Source of the DNA: Pseudomonadota bacterium
GTDB taxonomy: Bacteria > Desulfobacterota > Desulfovibrionia > Desulfovibrionales > Desulfovibrionaceae
Direction of reading: 5' to 3'
Assembly (NCBI GenBank): GCA_018817515.1
Contig: JAHIUD010000093.1
Location: forward strand, 1 to 64,000
Length of the DNA stretch: 64,000 nt
Each line of letters begins with the position of its first letter. Within the stretch, counting starts at the first letter, position 1. This document shows positions 5,948 through 31,952 of this stretch, in pieces. The position numbers and the translations under genes were made by a program. The notes under the pieces are model-generated. The model was not told the origin of the DNA. It saw nothing but the letters and a program-made list of their open reading frames with translations, and did no database searches.

Positions 5948-6643
5948 ATGCCCTCCCAAAACACCCCGCCGTTTCAGGCCATCCTCTTTGACTTCGACGG
6001 CACCCTGGCCAGCCTGCACATCGACTTCACGCGCCTGCGCCGCAAGCTGACCGCCCTGGCCGAGCCCTTCCTGGGCGAAGAGCCGGAGCCCTCCGAGCTG
6101 CCCGTGCTGGAGTGGCTGGACGAGCTGGCCGACGAGATCCGCGAGTTCGACCACCCCCTGGGCCAGGAGTTCCACTGCCGGGGCAGGCTGGTCATCCAGG
6201 CCACGGAGCTCGACGCCGCGCGCGAGGCCCAGCTCTTCCCCTTCACCCGGCCCCTGCTCGCCGAACTGCGCGCGGGCGGGATCAAAACCGGCATCATCAC
6301 CCGCAACTCCACGGCCGCCGTGAAGGTGGTTTTTCCGGATGTCGCGGCCTGCTGCGACTGCTTCATGGCCCGCGAGGACGCGCCAAAGGTCAAGCCCGAC
6401 CCGGCCCACGCCCTGGCCGTGCTGGATCGCCTGGGGGTGCGCCCGGAGCGCGCCCTGCTCGTGGGCGACCACCCCCTGGACATCCTGGCCGCCCGGCAGG
6501 CTGGACTTGCCGCAGCCGCAGTGACAAGCGGCCACTCGCAACGTGAGGCCTTCGCCGCAGCCCGGCCAGACTACCTTGCGGAGGACTGCCTGGCGCTTAT
6601 GTCAAGTTTGCGTGAATTGTTCCTGTTGCCGCGAGCGCAGTGA
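5948..6643 (+). CDS. HAD-superfamily hydrolase (phosphoglycolate phosphatase-like)
   Basis: 231-residue HAD phosphatase. Motif I is DFDGTL with the nucleophile Asp near residue 15. Motif II is ITRNS, motif III is KVKPDP and motif IV is VGDHPLDI. The helical cap lies between motifs I and II, as in the phosphoglycolate phosphatase and beta-phosphoglucomutase group. The substrate is not predictable from sequence. The start ATG gives the standard short lead-in to motif I. It precedes the HD-GYP triplet. Confidence 0.88.
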   Translation: MPSQNTPPFQAILFDFDGTLASLHIDFTRLRRKLTALAEPFLGEEPEPSELPVLEWLDELADEIREFDHPLGQEFHCRGRLVIQATELDAAREAQLFPFTRPLLAELRAGGIKTGIITRNSTAAVKVVFPDVAACCDCFMAREDAPKVKPDPAHALAVLDRLGVRPERALLVGDHPLDILAARQAGLAAAAVTSGHSQREAFAAARPDYLAEDCLALMSSLRELFLLPRAQ

Positions 6644-6675: not shown

Positions 6676-7839
6676 ATGCAACAGCGGATCAAGCGCAGCG
6701 AACTCAAGGCGGGCATGTACCTCGTGAGCCACGGCCTGGGCACCTTTTCCAGCCCCCTGGTCCAGGTGGACAAACCCATCCTCACCCCCACGAACATAGA
6801 TGAATACATCCCGGCCGACGTCGAGGATGTGCTCATCGACACCAGCATTCAGCTCTCCCTGCTCGGTCAGGTCAGGCCGGTGGGAGTGCCCATCACCACC
6901 GGAATGGGAGAGGAGCTGCACATCGCCAAGCGGCTGTATGCCGACGCCCTGGTGCACGTGAAGAGCTTCGTCGACGACGTGCGCAAGGGCACGGACATCG
7001 ACTACCGCAAAGCCACGCCCCTGGTGCAGAACTTCATCGAGAGCGTGTTCCGCAACGAGGCCGCCGCCGTGACCCTGTTCAAGCTGCGCGGCTTCGACGA
7101 ATACACCTACACCCACTCCATCAACGTGAGCATCCTGGCCGTGATCCTGGGCAAGCACCTGGGCCTGGACAAGACCGCCCTGCTCAAGCTGGGCCTGGCG
7201 GGCATGTATCATGATGTGGGCAAGGCGAAGATCCCGGAGAGCATTCTGAACAAGCCCGGCAAGCTCACCAAGGACGAGTTCCAGATCATGAAGAGCCACC
7301 CGCTGGAGGGCTACCGGATCATGCAGGGCCAGAAGGACCTGGACCCGGAGATTCTGCGCGCCGTGGTGGAGCACCACGAACGCCACGACGGATCGGGCTA
7401 CCCGCGCGCCCTCAAGAGCGAGGACATCGGCAGGTTCTCGCGCATCATCGCCGTTGTCGACGTCTACGACGCCCTCACCAGCAGGCGCGTCTACAAGGAC
7501 GCCATGGCCCCGGCCAAGGCCCTGGGCATGATGTACCAGCTGCGCGACAAGGACTTCCCGCACAACGCCATCGAAAACTTCATCCGCTGCATCGGCGTGT
7601 TCCCGGTGGGCAGCTTCGTGCGCCTTTCCGGCGGCGAGTTCGGCATCGTTGCCAGCGCCAATCCCACGCGCCCCACCAAGCCCGAGGTCAAGGTCGTGCT
7701 GGACGCCAAGATGCGCCCCCAGCTCTCGCGCCTGCTCGACCTGGAGACCCTGGAGGGCACGCCACAGGCCCAGGACATCGCCGAGGTGCTGAACCCGTTT
7801 GACTACAAGCTCGATCTGGAGCGTTTCCTCAACGCCTGA
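6676..7839 (+). CDS. DUF3391/HD-GYP cyclic-di-GMP phosphodiesterase, copy 1
   Basis: 387 residues. A DUF3391-type N-terminus (about 1-125, IKRSELKAGMYLVSHGLG) is followed by a complete HD-GYP domain. Metal and signature residues are visible: His147 (YTHSIN), His179-Asp180 (YHDVGK), His209 (SHPLEGY) and HHERHDGSGYPR from 233. HD-GYP proteins hydrolyse c-di-GMP to pGpG or GMP, and with these residues activity is expected. An AGGAG ribosome site precedes the ATG. It is the first of three tandem paralogues with the same architecture and the same C-terminal block (EGTPQAQDIAEVLNP). Confidence 0.93.
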   Translation: MQQRIKRSELKAGMYLVSHGLGTFSSPLVQVDKPILTPTNIDEYIPADVEDVLIDTSIQLSLLGQVRPVGVPITTGMGEELHIAKRLYADALVHVKSFVDDVRKGTDIDYRKATPLVQNFIESVFRNEAAAVTLFKLRGFDEYTYTHSINVSILAVILGKHLGLDKTALLKLGLAGMYHDVGKAKIPESILNKPGKLTKDEFQIMKSHPLEGYRIMQGQKDLDPEILRAVVEHHERHDGSGYPRALKSEDIGRFSRIIAVVDVYDALTSRRVYKDAMAPAKALGMMYQLRDKDFPHNAIENFIRCIGVFPVGSFVRLSGGEFGIVASANPTRPTKPEVKVVLDAKMRPQLSRLLDLETLEGTPQAQDIAEVLNPFDYKLDLERFLNA

Positions 7840-7884
7840 GCCCCCCGAAGTCCTGCCCTACGCAGCTCCATCAGCCCCTTGGCC

Positions 7885-7932
7885 AGCCGCCGGACCAGCC
7901 GTCGAACCAGCCGTCGAACCAGCCGTCGAACC
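7885..7932. repeat. 12-bp tandem repeat between HD-GYP copies 1 and 2
   Basis: AGCCGTCGAACC occurs three times head to tail, preceded by one diverged copy (AGCCGCCGGACC). It lies in the 174-base gap between the first two HD-GYP genes, outside any supported coding region. Confidence 0.9.
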
Positions 7933-8013
7933 AGCCGGCCGGCCTCTCCAGGCGGCTAAAATTACGTATTGCGGTTTCCCGCCGACGAGGTCATCTTCGC
8001 GCCGGAAACAGCA

Positions 8014-9171
8014 ATGCAAAAGCACATCAAACGCAGCGAACTCAAGCCGGGCATGTTCGTTGTCAGCTACGGCCTGGGCACCTTCAGCAACCCGCTTGTC
8101 CGGGTGAATACCCACGTTTCGAGCCAGGCCGAGATCGACGCGCTCATGGTGGACGAGGCCGAGGCCATCCTCATCGACACGGGCAACACCCTCTTCCTGC
8201 GCGGCGAGCAGGAGCAGGCGCCGCCCCAATGCAGCCTGCATGAGGAGCTGCCTGCGGCCCGGCGGCTGCATGCCGATGCCCTGGAGTACGTGAAGGGGTT
8301 CTTCGAGAGCATGCGCCTGGGCACGAACCTCAGCTGCCAAGGGGCCGTTCCCCTGGTGGAGCGCTTCGTCCAGAGCGTCATGCGCAACTCCACCGCCGCA
8401 GCGACCCTGTTCAAGCTGCGCAACCACGACGAATACACTTTCTGCCACTCCATCAATGTCAGCGTCCTGTCCGTGGTCCTGGGCAAGCAGCTGGGCCTGG
8501 GCAAGGCCTCCCTGGTCAACCTGGGCCTAGCCGGGCTGCTGCACGATGCAGGAAAAGAGCGCGTGCCCGCGAGTCTTTTGACCAAGCCCGGCAGCCTCAC
8601 CGAGAGCGAGCGCAGGGTCCTGAAGACCCATCCCCTGGAAGGCTACAAGGCCCTCAGCGGTCAGGAGGACATCCCCCTTGAGGTGCTGCGCGCCGTGCTG
8701 GAGCACCACGAACGCCACGATGGCTCGGGCTACCCGCGCGGACTCAAGGGCGACGACATCGCCGCGTTCTCCCGCGTCATCGTCGTGGTCGACGTGTACG
8801 ACGCCCTCACCAGCGAGCGCGCCTACAAACGGGCCCTGCCCCCGGCCAAGGCGCTCAGCCAGATGTTCCAGATGCGCGGCAAGCAGTTCTCCGAGGACGA
8901 CATCGACCACTTCATCCGCTGCATCGGCGTGTTTCCGGTGGGCAGCTTCGTGCGGCTCACCGGCGGCGAGCACGGCATCGTCATCAGCACCAACCCGGGC
9001 AGGCCCACCAAGCCGCAGGTCAAGGTCGTGCTGAACTCCAGGATGCGCCCTGTCCTGCCCCGCGTGCTCGACCTGGAAGCCATGGAGGGCACGCCCCAGG
9101 CCCAGGACATCGCCGAAGTGCTGAACCCCGCCGACTACAGGCTCGACATGGAGCGCTTCCTCAGCGCCTGA
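8014..9171 (+). CDS. DUF3391/HD-GYP cyclic-di-GMP phosphodiesterase, copy 2
   Basis: 385 residues from the ATG at 8014, chosen because MQKHIKRSELKPGMFVVS aligns with the starts of the other two copies. The track start 15 codons upstream gives an unrelated lead. HD-GYP residues are intact: FCHSIN, LLHDAGK, HPLEGY and HHERHDGSGYPR. The ribosome site is poor, so it may depend on transcription or translation from copy 1. The middle of the N-terminal domain differs most from copies 1 and 3, which is where sensing differences would be expected. It is predicted to be active on c-di-GMP. Confidence 0.9.
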   Translation: MQKHIKRSELKPGMFVVSYGLGTFSNPLVRVNTHVSSQAEIDALMVDEAEAILIDTGNTLFLRGEQEQAPPQCSLHEELPAARRLHADALEYVKGFFESMRLGTNLSCQGAVPLVERFVQSVMRNSTAAATLFKLRNHDEYTFCHSINVSVLSVVLGKQLGLGKASLVNLGLAGLLHDAGKERVPASLLTKPGSLTESERRVLKTHPLEGYKALSGQEDIPLEVLRAVLEHHERHDGSGYPRGLKGDDIAAFSRVIVVVDVYDALTSERAYKRALPPAKALSQMFQMRGKQFSEDDIDHFIRCIGVFPVGSFVRLTGGEHGIVISTNPGRPTKPQVKVVLNSRMRPVLPRVLDLEAMEGTPQAQDIAEVLNPADYRLDMERFLSA

Positions 9172-9301
9172 GCCCCCACAGCCCCCCGCCCATCTCTCCA
9201 GACCTCCAGGCTTGCCTGGCCGCACACATTTTTGTATTACACAGCAAAAAATGTATTGCGCTATTAGAGTAAAATAGACATAGTCCGTACCGGAAAATAA
9301 T

Positions 9302-10462
9302 ATGTACCTATGCATCAAGCGCAGCGAACTCAAGCCCGGCATGTACGTCGTCTGCCATGGGCGGGGCACCTTTGACAGTCCTTTTGTCAGGGTGGACTCT
9401 GTCACGCCCTATCAGGACAAGATCGACTCGCTTATCCCGCCAGACGCCGAGTTCGTGCTCATCGACGGAAGCAGGGCCGACGTCATCTCCACTGCGGCGG
9501 AGGCCTTGTCCGAGACAGCCAGCAGCCTGCAGGAAGATCTGGCCGTGGCCAGGCAGCTGCACGCCGACGCCCTGGATTATGTAAAACAATTCATGGAGAA
9601 CGTGCGGCACGGCACGGACATCAATGTCGGCAAAGCCGCATGCCTTGTGGATCGGTTTGTCGAGAGCGTGCTGCGCAACGGCACCGCCGCAGTGACCCTG
9701 TTCAAGCTGCGCAACTTCGACGAATACACCTACACCCACTCCATCAACGTGAGCATCCTGGCCGTGCTGCTGGGCAAGCACCTGGGCCTGGGCAAGTCCT
9801 CCCTGCTCAAGCTCGGCCTGGCCGGGCTGCTGCACGATGCAGGCAAGGAGTTCGTCCCGCAGCACATCCTGAACAAGCCCGGCAAGCTCACCGGCGACGA
9901 ATTCCGGGTCGTCAAGGCCCACCCCCTGGCTGGCTTCAACCTCCTGCGCAAACAGCGGGACATGCAGGTGGATGTCCTGCAGGCCGTGCTGGAACACCAT
10001 GAACGCCACGACGGTTCCGGCTACCCGCGCGGCCTCCGGGACGACAGCATCGGCCTGTACTCGCGGGTGCTGGCCATTGTGGACGTGTACGACGCGCTCA
10101 CCAGCAAGCGCGTGTACAAGGAGGCCCTGCCCCCGGCCAAGGCCCTGGCCCTCATGTACTCCATGCGCGACACCCAGTTCGCTGCGGACGACATCGACAA
10201 CTTCATCCGCTGCGTCGGCGTGTTCCCCACAGGCAGCCTCGTGCGGCTCACCGGCGGCGAGCACGGCATCGTCATGAGCATCAACCCGGGCAGGCCCACC
10301 AAGCCGCAGATCAAGGTCGTGCTGAACGCCAGGATGCACCCTGTCCTGCCGCGCATGCTCGACCTGGAGGCCATGGAGGGCACGCCCGAGGCCCAGGACA
10401 TCGCCGAAGTGCTGAACCCCGCCGACTACAAGCTCGACCTTGAGCAATTCCTCAGCGCTTAA
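9302..10462 (+). CDS. DUF3391/HD-GYP cyclic-di-GMP phosphodiesterase, copy 3
   Basis: 386 residues with the same layout as copies 1 and 2: CIKRSELKPGMYVVCHGRG at the start, then YTHSIN, LLHDAGK, HPLAGF and HHERHDGSGYPR. All expected HD-GYP residues are present. The 130-base gap before it is much more AT-rich than its surroundings (CATTTTTGTATTAC and GTAAAATAGACATAG), so an independent promoter is likely, though I cannot fix its boxes. The C-terminal segment is closest to copy 2 (RLTGGEHGIV in both). Confidence 0.92.
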   Translation: MYLCIKRSELKPGMYVVCHGRGTFDSPFVRVDSVTPYQDKIDSLIPPDAEFVLIDGSRADVISTAAEALSETASSLQEDLAVARQLHADALDYVKQFMENVRHGTDINVGKAACLVDRFVESVLRNGTAAVTLFKLRNFDEYTYTHSINVSILAVLLGKHLGLGKSSLLKLGLAGLLHDAGKEFVPQHILNKPGKLTGDEFRVVKAHPLAGFNLLRKQRDMQVDVLQAVLEHHERHDGSGYPRGLRDDSIGLYSRVLAIVDVYDALTSKRVYKEALPPAKALALMYSMRDTQFAADDIDNFIRCVGVFPTGSLVRLTGGEHGIVMSINPGRPTKPQIKVVLNARMHPVLPRMLDLEAMEGTPEAQDIAEVLNPADYKLDLEQFLSA

Positions 10463-10543
10463 GCCCCCACAGCCCCAGTCCAGCTTCTGGCCAAGGCCCT
10501 TTCCCCTTGCCCACGCGGGCGCTTCGTGCTAGCCGCAGGCATC

Positions 10544-11203
10544 ATGCTTGAATCCGTATCCGACCAGATCGTCCGCATCAGCATTTTGGCAGTGCCGCTG
10601 CTCCTGGGCCTGACCTGCCATGAACTGGCCCACGGCCTCGTGGCCTTGTCCCTGGGAGACCCCACGGCCAAGCTCGCCGGACGGCTGACCATGAACCCCA
10701 TCCGCCACCTGGACCCCATGGGTGCCATAGCGTTCATCCTGGCCAACATCGGCTGGGCCAAGCCCGTGCCCGTGAACCCCATGTACTTCAAGCGCCCCAT
10801 GCGCGACATGATGCTGGTGTCCCTGGCCGGGCCAGGGGCAAACTTCCTGCTGGCCCTGCTCTTCGCCGGGCTGTTCCATGTGCTCCTGCCGCAGGCCATC
10901 ACCCGCCCGGAGCTGGCTTCCGTGCTGCACCCGCTGGTGCTCATCGGCCAGGCCGGGGTGGTGGTGAACCTCATGCTGGCCTTCTTCAACCTGCTGCCCA
11001 TCCCCCCGCTGGACGGCAGCAACATCCTGGCCTGGCTCTTGCCGGACAACCTGGCGTACAAGTTTCTCTCCCTGGGCCGCTACGGTTTCATGCTGCTGCT
11101 GGGCCTGCTCATCATCTCCCAACTGGCGGGCATCAGCCTGCTGGGCTCACTCATCTTTCCGCCCGTGGGCTTCGTCTCGGCCCTGCTTGGCGTGCCCCTG
11201 TAA
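10544..11203 (+). CDS. Site-2 protease family (M50) membrane metalloprotease
   Basis: 219-residue integral membrane protease of the M50 family, of the short FwdE/SpoIVFB-like type without PDZ domains. The zinc motif HELAH lies at residues 26-30 in the first transmembrane helix, and the second metal motif is NLLPIPPLDGSNIL near residue 155. At least four hydrophobic segments are visible. The track starts at a GTG six codons upstream. The ATG at 10544 has a GCAGG just before it and is preferred. It is followed after 24 bases by trpS. The substrate is unknown. Confidence 0.9.
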   Translation: MLESVSDQIVRISILAVPLLLGLTCHELAHGLVALSLGDPTAKLAGRLTMNPIRHLDPMGAIAFILANIGWAKPVPVNPMYFKRPMRDMMLVSLAGPGANFLLALLFAGLFHVLLPQAITRPELASVLHPLVLIGQAGVVVNLMLAFFNLLPIPPLDGSNILAWLLPDNLAYKFLSLGRYGFMLLLGLLIISQLAGISLLGSLIFPPVGFVSALLGVPL

Positions 11204-14241: not shown

Positions 14242-15489
14242 ATGGCCGTACGCCTGTTCGATTTTCTCACCGGGCTCTCCGGGGCGCTGGACCTCATCAG
14301 CCCGGAGGTGGTGGGCCACCACAAACGCGTGGCTTACGCAGCGGTGCGCCTGGCCAGGGTGCTGGATCTGCCGCGCGACGAGCGCACGGACCTCTACGTG
14401 GCCGGGCTCATGCACGACGTCGGCGGCTTCTCCCTCCAGAGCAGACTGGCGGCCCTGCAGTTCGAGACCGATGGCGCCAAGCACGCCGAACTGGGCTACC
14501 GCCTGCTGCGCGGGAACCCGCTGCTGCAAAACGTGGCCCTCCTCGTGCGCCACCACCACACGTCCTACGCGCAGTTCGAGAGGCTCAACGCCCCGCCGCG
14601 CAAACTCTACCTGGCCAACGTGCTCTGCCTGGCCGATCGCGTGGACGCCCTCCTCTCCCGCGAGGGCGAGCGTTCGCCCGACCAGGTCCTCAGCCGCATA
14701 CGCTCCCTGGCGGGGTACAAGTTCGCCCCGGACATCGTGGACGCCCTGGCTGAGCTGGCCGGGGCCGAGCGCTTCTGGGCCGACATGGCCTTAAGCGACC
14801 CCACCGGCGCCCTCACCGACTCCCCGGACATGTTCGACGAACGCGCCATGTCGCGCGGGCAGCTCATGGCCGCGTCCCAGGCCTTCTCGCAGATCATCGA
14901 CTTCCGCAGCCGCTTTACGGCCACGCACACGCGCGGCGTGGCCGAGACCGCGGTGCGCCTGGCCCAAAGGGCCGGATTCAACGCCCATGAGCTGGACCAG
15001 ATGCGCCTGGCCGGAAACCTGCACGACCTGGGCAAGCTGGCCGTGCCCTCGGAAATCCTGGACAAGCCCGGCCCGCTGACTGCGGAGGAGCTCGGCGTCA
15101 TGCGCCGCCACCCGGAACTGGGCCGCGCCATCCTGGCCTCGGTGCCGGGCCTTGAGCAGGTCACGGACTGGGCCTCGCAGCACCATGAGCAGCCGGGCGG
15201 CCAGGGCTATCCCTGCAAGCTCTCCGGCCAGGCGCTGTCGCTGGGCTCGCGCATCCTCACCGTGGCCGATGTGTTCACGGCCCTGCGCGAGGACCGGCCC
15301 TACCGCGCGGGCATGGGCTCGGAGGAGACCCTGCGCATCCTCGACAACATGGCCTCCACAGGCGCCCTGGACCCGCAGGTGACCTCGCTGATGCGCGAGC
15401 ACCACGCCGAGCTCAACGAAGGCCGCCAGATCGCCCAGACCCTGGCCGCCGAGGAATTCCGCGAGTTCTATTCCAGCCTGGAGCAGTGA
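14242..15489 (+). CDS. Double HD-domain protein with divergent HD-GYP module
   Basis: 415 residues with two HD-type domains in tandem. The first (about 20-170) keeps GHHKRV and LMHDVGG and has RHHHTSY, but lacks a GYP motif. The second (about 215-390) keeps THTRGV, NLHDLGK, RHPELG and HHEQPGGQGYP. In that last motif the usual Asp before Gly is replaced by Gly. Architecture and the GYP motif suggest a cyclic-dinucleotide phosphodiesterase or a binding-only relative. Activity of either half is uncertain. A GGGGAGCG site precedes the ATG. It follows the secreted protein gene closely. Confidence 0.8.
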   Translation: MAVRLFDFLTGLSGALDLISPEVVGHHKRVAYAAVRLARVLDLPRDERTDLYVAGLMHDVGGFSLQSRLAALQFETDGAKHAELGYRLLRGNPLLQNVALLVRHHHTSYAQFERLNAPPRKLYLANVLCLADRVDALLSREGERSPDQVLSRIRSLAGYKFAPDIVDALAELAGAERFWADMALSDPTGALTDSPDMFDERAMSRGQLMAASQAFSQIIDFRSRFTATHTRGVAETAVRLAQRAGFNAHELDQMRLAGNLHDLGKLAVPSEILDKPGPLTAEELGVMRRHPELGRAILASVPGLEQVTDWASQHHEQPGGQGYPCKLSGQALSLGSRILTVADVFTALREDRPYRAGMGSEETLRILDNMASTGALDPQVTSLMREHHAELNEGRQIAQTLAAEEFREFYSSLEQ

Positions 15490-20653: not shown

Positions 20654-21019
<366 letters not shown>

Positions 21020-30832: not shown

Positions 30833-30876
30833 GGCACCTCTAGGGCACCTCTAGGGCACCTCTAGGGCACCTCTAG
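30833..30876. repeat. 11-bp tandem repeat at the argC stop codon
   Basis: GGCACCTCTAG is repeated four times without change. The copy nearest argC contains its TAG stop codon. Because the unit is 11 bases, the TAG in each copy falls in a different reading frame, so all three frames are closed. Confidence 0.95.
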
Positions 30877-31952
30877 GGCATCAACGGGGCCAGCGGCAGG
30901 CCCATGATCTCGGGCAGGCCGAGCATCAGGTTCGCGCCCGCCACGGCCTGGCCAGACGCGCCACGGCAGAGGTTGTCGATGGCCGACAGAATGATCAGCC
31001 TGCCCAGGCGCTCGTCCACGGCCAGGCCGAGGTCGCAGAACATGGTCCCGCGCACCCAGCGCGTCTCCGGCAGGGTGCCCAGCGGCAGCACGCGCACCAG
31101 CGGCTCGTCCGCGTAGCGGGCGGCGTAGACCGCGTGCACCTCGGCCAGGGTCATGGGCTTTTTCAGGCGCGTGTAGATGGTGGACAGGATGCCCCGGCCA
31201 ATGGGCAAGAGATGCGTGTTGAACGAGAGCGCCACGTTCTCGCCCGCCAGCAGCGACACCTCCTGCTCGATCTCCGGGGTGTGGCGGTGTTTGGTCAAAT
31301 TGTAGGCGCGGAAGCTGTCGCTCACCTCGCAGAACAGCGTGCCCACCGAAGCCTTTCTCCCTGCTCCCGATGTCCCGCTCTTGGCGTCGATGACGATGTC
31401 GTCGGTATGGACGAGCCCGGACTCCAGCGCCGGGGCCAGGCCCAGGATCGCCGAGGTCGGGTAGCAGCCCGGGTTGGCGATGAGCCGGGCCCCGGCCATG
31501 TCCGCGCGGTACAGCTCGGGCAGGCCGTACACGGCCTCGGCCAGCAGCTTCGGCTCGGTGTGCGGCGTGGCGTACCAGTGCTCGTAGGTGGGCTTGTGGC
31601 GCAGGCGGAAGTCCGCCGAGAGGTCCACCACGCGCACGCCCGCTGCGATGAGCTTGCCGGCGATCTCCTGGGCGGTCTTGTGCGGCACGGCCAGAAACAC
31701 CAGTTGGCAGGCCGCCGCCAGATCCGCCGGATCGGGCTGCGTCACCGTGAGCGCGCCCATGCGGCCCAGGTCGCCGGGGCCGGAAAGATACGGGTAGAGC
31801 TCGGCCAGGGTTTTGCCCGCCTCGGAGCGCGAGGTGGCGCGCACCAGCTCCAGGCCCGGGTGCCCGGCCAGGATGCGCGTGAGCTCCATGCCGGTGTAGC
31901 CGGTGACGCCCACCAATCCGACGGGAATGCGCTTGGCGCTGGTTGCCGTCAT
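30873..31952 (-). CDS. argC: N-acetyl-gamma-glutamyl-phosphate reductase
   Basis: NADPH-dependent step of arginine biosynthesis, reducing N-acetylglutamyl phosphate to the semialdehyde. 359 residues. The Rossmann start is VGLVGVTGYTGMEL, the active-site cysteine is in NPGCYPTSA, and the catalytic His is in KHRHTPEIEQE. SGTSGAGRKA is a further family block. It starts two bases after the DUF1844 gene stop, so the pair is translationally coupled. Confidence 0.97.
   Translation of the reverse strand: MTATSAKRIPVGLVGVTGYTGMELTRILAGHPGLELVRATSRSEAGKTLAELYPYLSGPGDLGRMGALTVTQPDPADLAAACQLVFLAVPHKTAQEIAGKLIAAGVRVVDLSADFRLRHKPTYEHWYATPHTEPKLLAEAVYGLPELYRADMAGARLIANPGCYPTSAILGLAPALESGLVHTDDIVIDAKSGTSGAGRKASVGTLFCEVSDSFRAYNLTKHRHTPEIEQEVSLLAGENVALSFNTHLLPIGRGILSTIYTRLKKPMTLAEVHAVYAARYADEPLVRVLPLGTLPETRWVRGTMFCDLGLAVDERLGRLIILSAIDNLCRGASGQAVAGANLMLGLPEIMGLPLAPLMP

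Follow-up and report, generated by a model that had tools for sequence, protein, structure and literature searches.

The three adjacent HD-GYP genes A, B and C of the window (the whole 64,000-nucleotide stretch of DNA analysed) are probably members of an old tandem family of cytoplasmic HD-GYP proteins and likely cyclic-dinucleotide phosphodiesterases, with N-terminal ends that have diverged and C-terminal domains that have been homogenised. The copies were found to be about as old as the species that carry them, or older, B and C share a conversion tract at their 3' ends, and a promoter-like box precedes each of the two duplicates.

The array and its copy number in the genus

An earlier note had described a trio of head-to-tail genes of 385–387 residues sharing one architecture, and this was confirmed by coordinates and Pfam domains (Table 1). 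HD_5/HD matches (E 1e-14 to 1e-32) were detected in A, B and C, and their HD_5 (PF13487) scores of 112.3, 113.6 and 112.2 bits, against a cut-off of 27.2, place all three in the HD-GYP family. DUF3391 (PF11871) scored 46.3 bits in B and 44.0 bits in C, above the cut-off of 27.8, and was borderline in A (27.4 bits by hmmscan, 28.4 bits in the genome search). The three genes are the sole DUF3391 matches in their own 3.61 Mb assembly (95% complete), and HD-GYP-like matches occur at 14 further places of that assembly. Protein identity is 61% for A–B, 62% for A–C and 65% for B–C, far above chance. The N-terminal regions are indeed divergent, as was noticed earlier: over residues 1–75 the paralogues are 42–47% identical, versus 69–81% between A and its orthologues in G002, G003, G008 and G013 and between B and its G008 orthologue (G numbers denote genomes). 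C and its counterpart share merely 41% over this region.

Table 1. Positions of the array genes and associated features (window coordinates, except in the last row)
Feature	Position	Strand	Remark
HAD-family hydrolase	5948..6643	+	Constant left neighbour of the ancestral copy across the genus
Gene A, DUF3391-HD-GYP, 387 aa	6676..7839	+	ATG start; position 1, putative ancestral copy; 32 nt behind HAD gene
12-bp tandem repeat CCAGCCGTCGAA, 4.6 copies	7883..7937	+	A–B spacer
Box before B, AAATTACGTATTGCGGT	7959..7975	+	-35-like TTGCGG, 17 nt to -10-like CATCTT
Gene B, DUF3391-HD-GYP, 385 aa	8014..9171	+	ATG start; position 2, counterpart of G008 position 2
Tract in B common with C	8950..9185	+	220/236 nt identical; extends 14 nt past stop
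Box before C, AAAAAATGTATTGCGCT	9246..9262	+	-35-like TTGCGC, 17 nt to -10-like CATAGT
Gene C, DUF3391-HD-GYP, 386 aa	9302..10462	+	ATG start; position 3; first ~310 codons counterpart of G002 position 2
Tract in C common with B	10241..10476	+	Same 236-nt stretch
Site-2-protease-like membrane protein	10526..11203	+	Right border of the array in six array genomes
DUF3391 neighbour pairs, other genus	G124:C11:26501-28181; G136:C12:79722-81554; G168:C28:259524-261958; G182:C4:125286-127668		Same-strand

The locus was compared among 15 genomes of the genus, the present one (G000) included. Seven carry a single copy (G001, G004, G005, G006, G007, G009 and G014) and six carry several, with two in G002, G012 and G013 and three in G000, G003 and G008. 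Pairwise identity and copy number in relatives, both suggested as checks in the earlier note, thus gave orthologues in congeners and one to three copies per locus. Copy 1 lies behind the HAD gene in every congener that has the locus, and in the six array genomes the extra copies are confined to the interval between copy 1 and the site-2-protease-like and trpS genes. These right-hand neighbours were absent from the single-copy genomes in the stretch read. The name site-2-protease-like was taken from the sequence, as the product gave no NCBIfam match.

Outside the array, 4 kb downstream, a plus-strand gene (14242..15489) encodes a protein with an HDOD/HD-like N-terminal half and an HD-GYP C-terminal half; it is conserved near four of the five other array loci, and at the fifth (G013) the contig ends first. 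In another genus of the same family, adjacent same-strand DUF3391 genes were found 1.3–2 kb apart, which are probably separate tandem pairs.

Predicted structure and activity

The predicted structure of A (mean pLDDT 77, pTM 0.68) has an N-terminal beta region with strands within residues 2–55, a long helix (77–103), the HD-GYP helices and a C-terminal five-strand region (314–372), with low confidence at residues 61–76 and 244–251. A fold search with this model matched the HD-GYP domains of PmGH, Bd1817, DvhD and PA4781; by sequence, the N-terminal region gave no significant match in the PDB. Bd1817 from Bdellovibrio bacteriovorus (PDB 3TM8), which has been termed a DUF3391 structure (PMC12943098), resembles the model in combining a DUF3391-like N-terminal region with HD-GYP and aligns over most of its length. 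It differs in its low identity (16%), in an unconventional HDG"Y"P motif (according to the depositors' title) and in a high whole-chain rmsd, so that its domain placement is unlike that of the A model. Leptospira proteins that combine DUF3391 and HD-GYP have been reported to end in a barrel-like domain whose function is not known (PMC12943098).

The c-di-GMP phosphodiesterase PmGH (PDB 4MCW) shares the HD-GYP core and metal ligands with the trio, lacks DUF3391, and has a Glu as third-metal ligand at a position that is Tyr in A, B and C (C was aligned to PmGH; A and B were read from their sequences). The 3'3'-cGAMP phosphodiesterase V-cGAP3 (PDB 5Z7C), the best PDB sequence match of C (HD-GYP core, 1e-29), has Tyr at this position like the trio and differs in its N-terminal region; its similarity to C gives no inference about substrate.

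The signature H, HD, H, HH, DGSGYP, D, comprising the two-metal ligand set and the GYP motif, is complete in A, B and C. The earlier statement that all HD-GYP residues are intact therefore holds for the two-metal set and fails for the third-metal Glu, which is replaced in all three. This Glu does not define the whole HD-GYP family, and two-metal members such as PA4781 exist. With Tyr in its place, a two-metal centre would be the likelier form in A, B and C. Most likely, the three are metal-dependent hydrolases of c-di-GMP (or cGAMP), each under separate regulation, as predicted from their sequences.

Could the copies instead have become receptors or regulators, at least in part, that bind a cyclic dinucleotide without degrading it? 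Inactive HD-GYP receptors are known in sulfate reducers, as in the case of DvhD of D. vulgaris (PMC13090378), and VC2497 of Vibrio cholerae, which shares the DUF3391 and HD-GYP architecture of the trio and has one non-conserved residue, showed no activity in any assay (PMC4212101). However, A, B and C keep the two-metal ligands and GYP, whereas the ligands are lost in DvhD (PMC13090378), and a receptor role is thus possible but rather unlikely. DUF3391 itself is without a demonstrated ligand, and the activity of some HD-GYP proteins was unchanged after its deletion (PMC12943098). Given this and the inactivity of VC2497, the label of sensor, which the earlier note gave to the N-terminal regions, is a guess, and the different cues suggested there for the three copies are conjecture.

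Recombination at the 3' end and age of the copies

Recombination between the copies, raised in the earlier note as a risk, was supported as a past event. It affects almost only the final ~75 codons, together with the 14 nt that follow the stop. The gene-conversion tests proposed there were run and revealed a same-genome 3' tract with a breakpoint, on which split trees, AU tests and quartets agree. Over the 236-nt tract B and C share 220 identical nucleotides, versus 188 and 184 for A. The breakpoint lies close to the start of the C-terminal strand region of the predicted structure.

Trees from codons 1–300 group the copies by orthology. Trees from codon 301 to the end unite B with C (100/99), copies 2 and 3 of G008 (99/95) and copies 1 and 2 of G013 (93/96); in addition, copies 1 and 2 of G002 cluster with G008 copy 1 (97/92). 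In AU tests, for which the own-genome groups were named after the trees had been seen, B with C was rejected for the 5' part (p 1e-14), and for the 3' part B with G008 copy 2 (p 0.003) and C with G002 copy 2 (p 0.002) were rejected. Informative sites, summed over bins, favoured orthology by 78:10 before alignment column 320 and own-genome pairing by 15:3 after it in the quartet of B, G008 copy 2, C and G002 copy 2; the second quartet (G008 copy 2, B, G008 copy 3, C) shifted from 74:21 to 0:21 across the same column. Permutation tests on all polymorphic columns were significant (p 0.0005 for B–C). Tests restricted to the 88 silent columns were underpowered and not significant (p 0.05 and above; 0.07–0.15 by permutation), so the case for conversion rests on the split trees and quartets.

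Purifying selection on a common C-terminal domain, with no recombination, would also produce high 3' similarity. The C extension is well conserved among all copies (74–85% at the amino acid level), the silent-only tests leave room for this reading, and part of the 3' similarity could indeed be constraint. As a full explanation it is improbable, however: synonymous codon identity of B–C rises to 0.93 in the C extension versus 0.74 in the HD part, whereas A–B and A–C stay at 0.73–0.74 in that extension; the 3' trees unite same-genome paralogues in three genomes; and the identity of B and C carries on beyond the stop codons into non-coding DNA. Judged from these alignments and trees, same-genome 3' homogenisation is present in at least three genomes (G000, G008 and G013), and may be the product of either gene conversion or unequal crossing-over; the data fit both. 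A recent conversion between A and C, considered at a patch of 52 identical nucleotides (around codons 137–179), was rejected because this stretch is equally close to copies of other species, and the patch is put down to conservation or older events.

Outside the homogenised end, the closest relatives lie in other species. A is 69–86% identical to the first-position copies of congeners (among them 86, 85, 83 and 82%) versus 61–62% to B and C; for B the figures are 82% to G008 copy 2 versus 61–65% to A and C; and C is 68% identical to G002 copy 2 versus 62–65% to its own paralogues. The protein tree likewise pairs B with G008 copy 2 (100/100) and C with G002 copy 2 (95/89), and gathers every duplicate in a single starred group, away from the position-1 genes. 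Each copy being nearer to a foreign homologue than to its siblings, the recent expansion suggested in the earlier note falls. In the HD part, synonymous codon identity is 0.74–0.85 between paralogues and 0.72–0.87 between species (~0.6 being expected at saturation); this near-equality places the duplications at about the time when the array species split, or before it. Together, the comparisons point to A as the ancestral gene. Four flanking genes gave no settled order of the array species, so any count of duplications and losses is tentative. The dN/dS ratios are given no interpretation, since silent sites show codon bias (GC3 about 0.9) and partial saturation.

The separateness of the duplicate clade from the position-1 genes would also fit a gain of the duplicates by horizontal transfer instead of duplication, yet this is very improbable: the closest relatives found belong to the same genus and every one of them sits at this locus, and no mobile-element gene lies between the neighbours. 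A tripling of the gene in the recent past of this species, with the copies retained for gene dosage or as redundant ones, would suit the head-to-tail layout, equal length and identical architecture, as well as a synonymous identity of paralogues not below that between species, and can nonetheless be dismissed, being refuted by the orthologues of A, B and C in congeners and opposed by a protein divergence of 35–39% and by silent sites that, at the level of interspecies orthologues, have moved well towards codon-usage saturation.

Promoter-like boxes, proposed history and related systems

The spacers of the duplicates carry AAAATACGTATTGCRCT or a variant of it, and the upstream regions of the first copies do not. 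The box was found in eight of nine duplicate spacers, the ninth (G012) having a degenerate form. It includes a -35-like TTGC[AG]C, followed after 17 nt by a -10-like hexamer with a conserved AT, and the start codon lies 39–49 nt behind its GTATTG core. A half-site, GTATTAC, is present at 9234, upstream of the C box. With up to three mismatches in the 17-mer, the boxes of B and C are the sole occurrences in the window (0.01 expected). The plain reading of the box would be a promoter, inherited with each duplicate, whose -35 may be overlapped by an operator; copy 1 is probably transcribed from the HAD operon. The weak -10 of both window boxes makes an activator of the B and C promoters plausible. 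A regulon for the box was considered and rejected, as matches elsewhere were few, genome-dependent, or at the 3' end of a mutL-like gene on the opposite strand. A box-like AAATACGTATAGC was seen once, in G003 contig 7 at about 5454, near the start of an EAL-domain-like reading frame. The 12-bp repeat of the A–B spacer is absent from the spacers of other species. No cyclic-dinucleotide riboswitch (GEMM or other) was detected upstream; at gathering scores the window gave only a tRNA.

In the proposed history, the ancestral gene A, placed behind the HAD gene, would have undergone one or more duplications in the common ancestor of a subclade of six species, and the duplicates would later have been lost, re-duplicated and retained with their own promoter. 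Each protein would combine a DUF3391 input or regulatory region, a catalytic HD-GYP domain and a small C-terminal beta domain. The last has probably been homogenised repeatedly within each genome, conversion or unequal crossing-over rarely reaching the remainder of the gene. Divergence of the N-terminal regions makes it probable that the copies differ in regulation or placement, which would amount to a division of labour.

A more speculative proposal is a modular isoform set, in which recombination is uneven: recurrent gene conversion limited to a tract would keep the C-terminal domain uniform in several species, DUF3391 would diversify, and each duplicate would have its own conserved promoter and private operator-like box. 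If this doubtful reading were true, the copies would need C-terminal domains that match, as in hetero-oligomers or for one common partner.

Recurrent concerted evolution is documented in prokaryotes, with paralogues homogenised repeatedly in separate lineages (PMC6053082); unlike in those cases, only the 3' fifth of the gene is homogenised in the trio, and the rest diverges. Tandem second-messenger paralogues are already known, as in the Leptospira PAS-GGDEF cluster. LIC_10138 and LIC_10139 of Leptospira interrogans are, like the trio, duplicated proteins with a DUF3391-like and an HD-GYP domain; they end in a C-terminal barrel and have consecutive locus numbers, but they have lost catalytic residues and were termed a recent duplication (PMC12943098). 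A search of a limited literature collection on HD-GYP with gene conversion found nothing relevant. Conversion restricted to one domain, as in this HD-GYP array, makes a neat further example of gene-family evolution and introduces no new kind of system. One, two or three copies at one locus in sister species form a natural series on the splitting of function in second-messenger enzymes, in which the DUF3391 region and the unnamed C-terminal domain evolve under opposite regimes. No role is known for DUF3391, and paralogues differing mostly there are therefore good material for finding one.

Elsewhere in the window, short tandem repeats form a GCC/CCGGAG-rich array at 20666–20791, and a perfect 11-bp GGCACCTCTAG repeat occupies 30833–30890.
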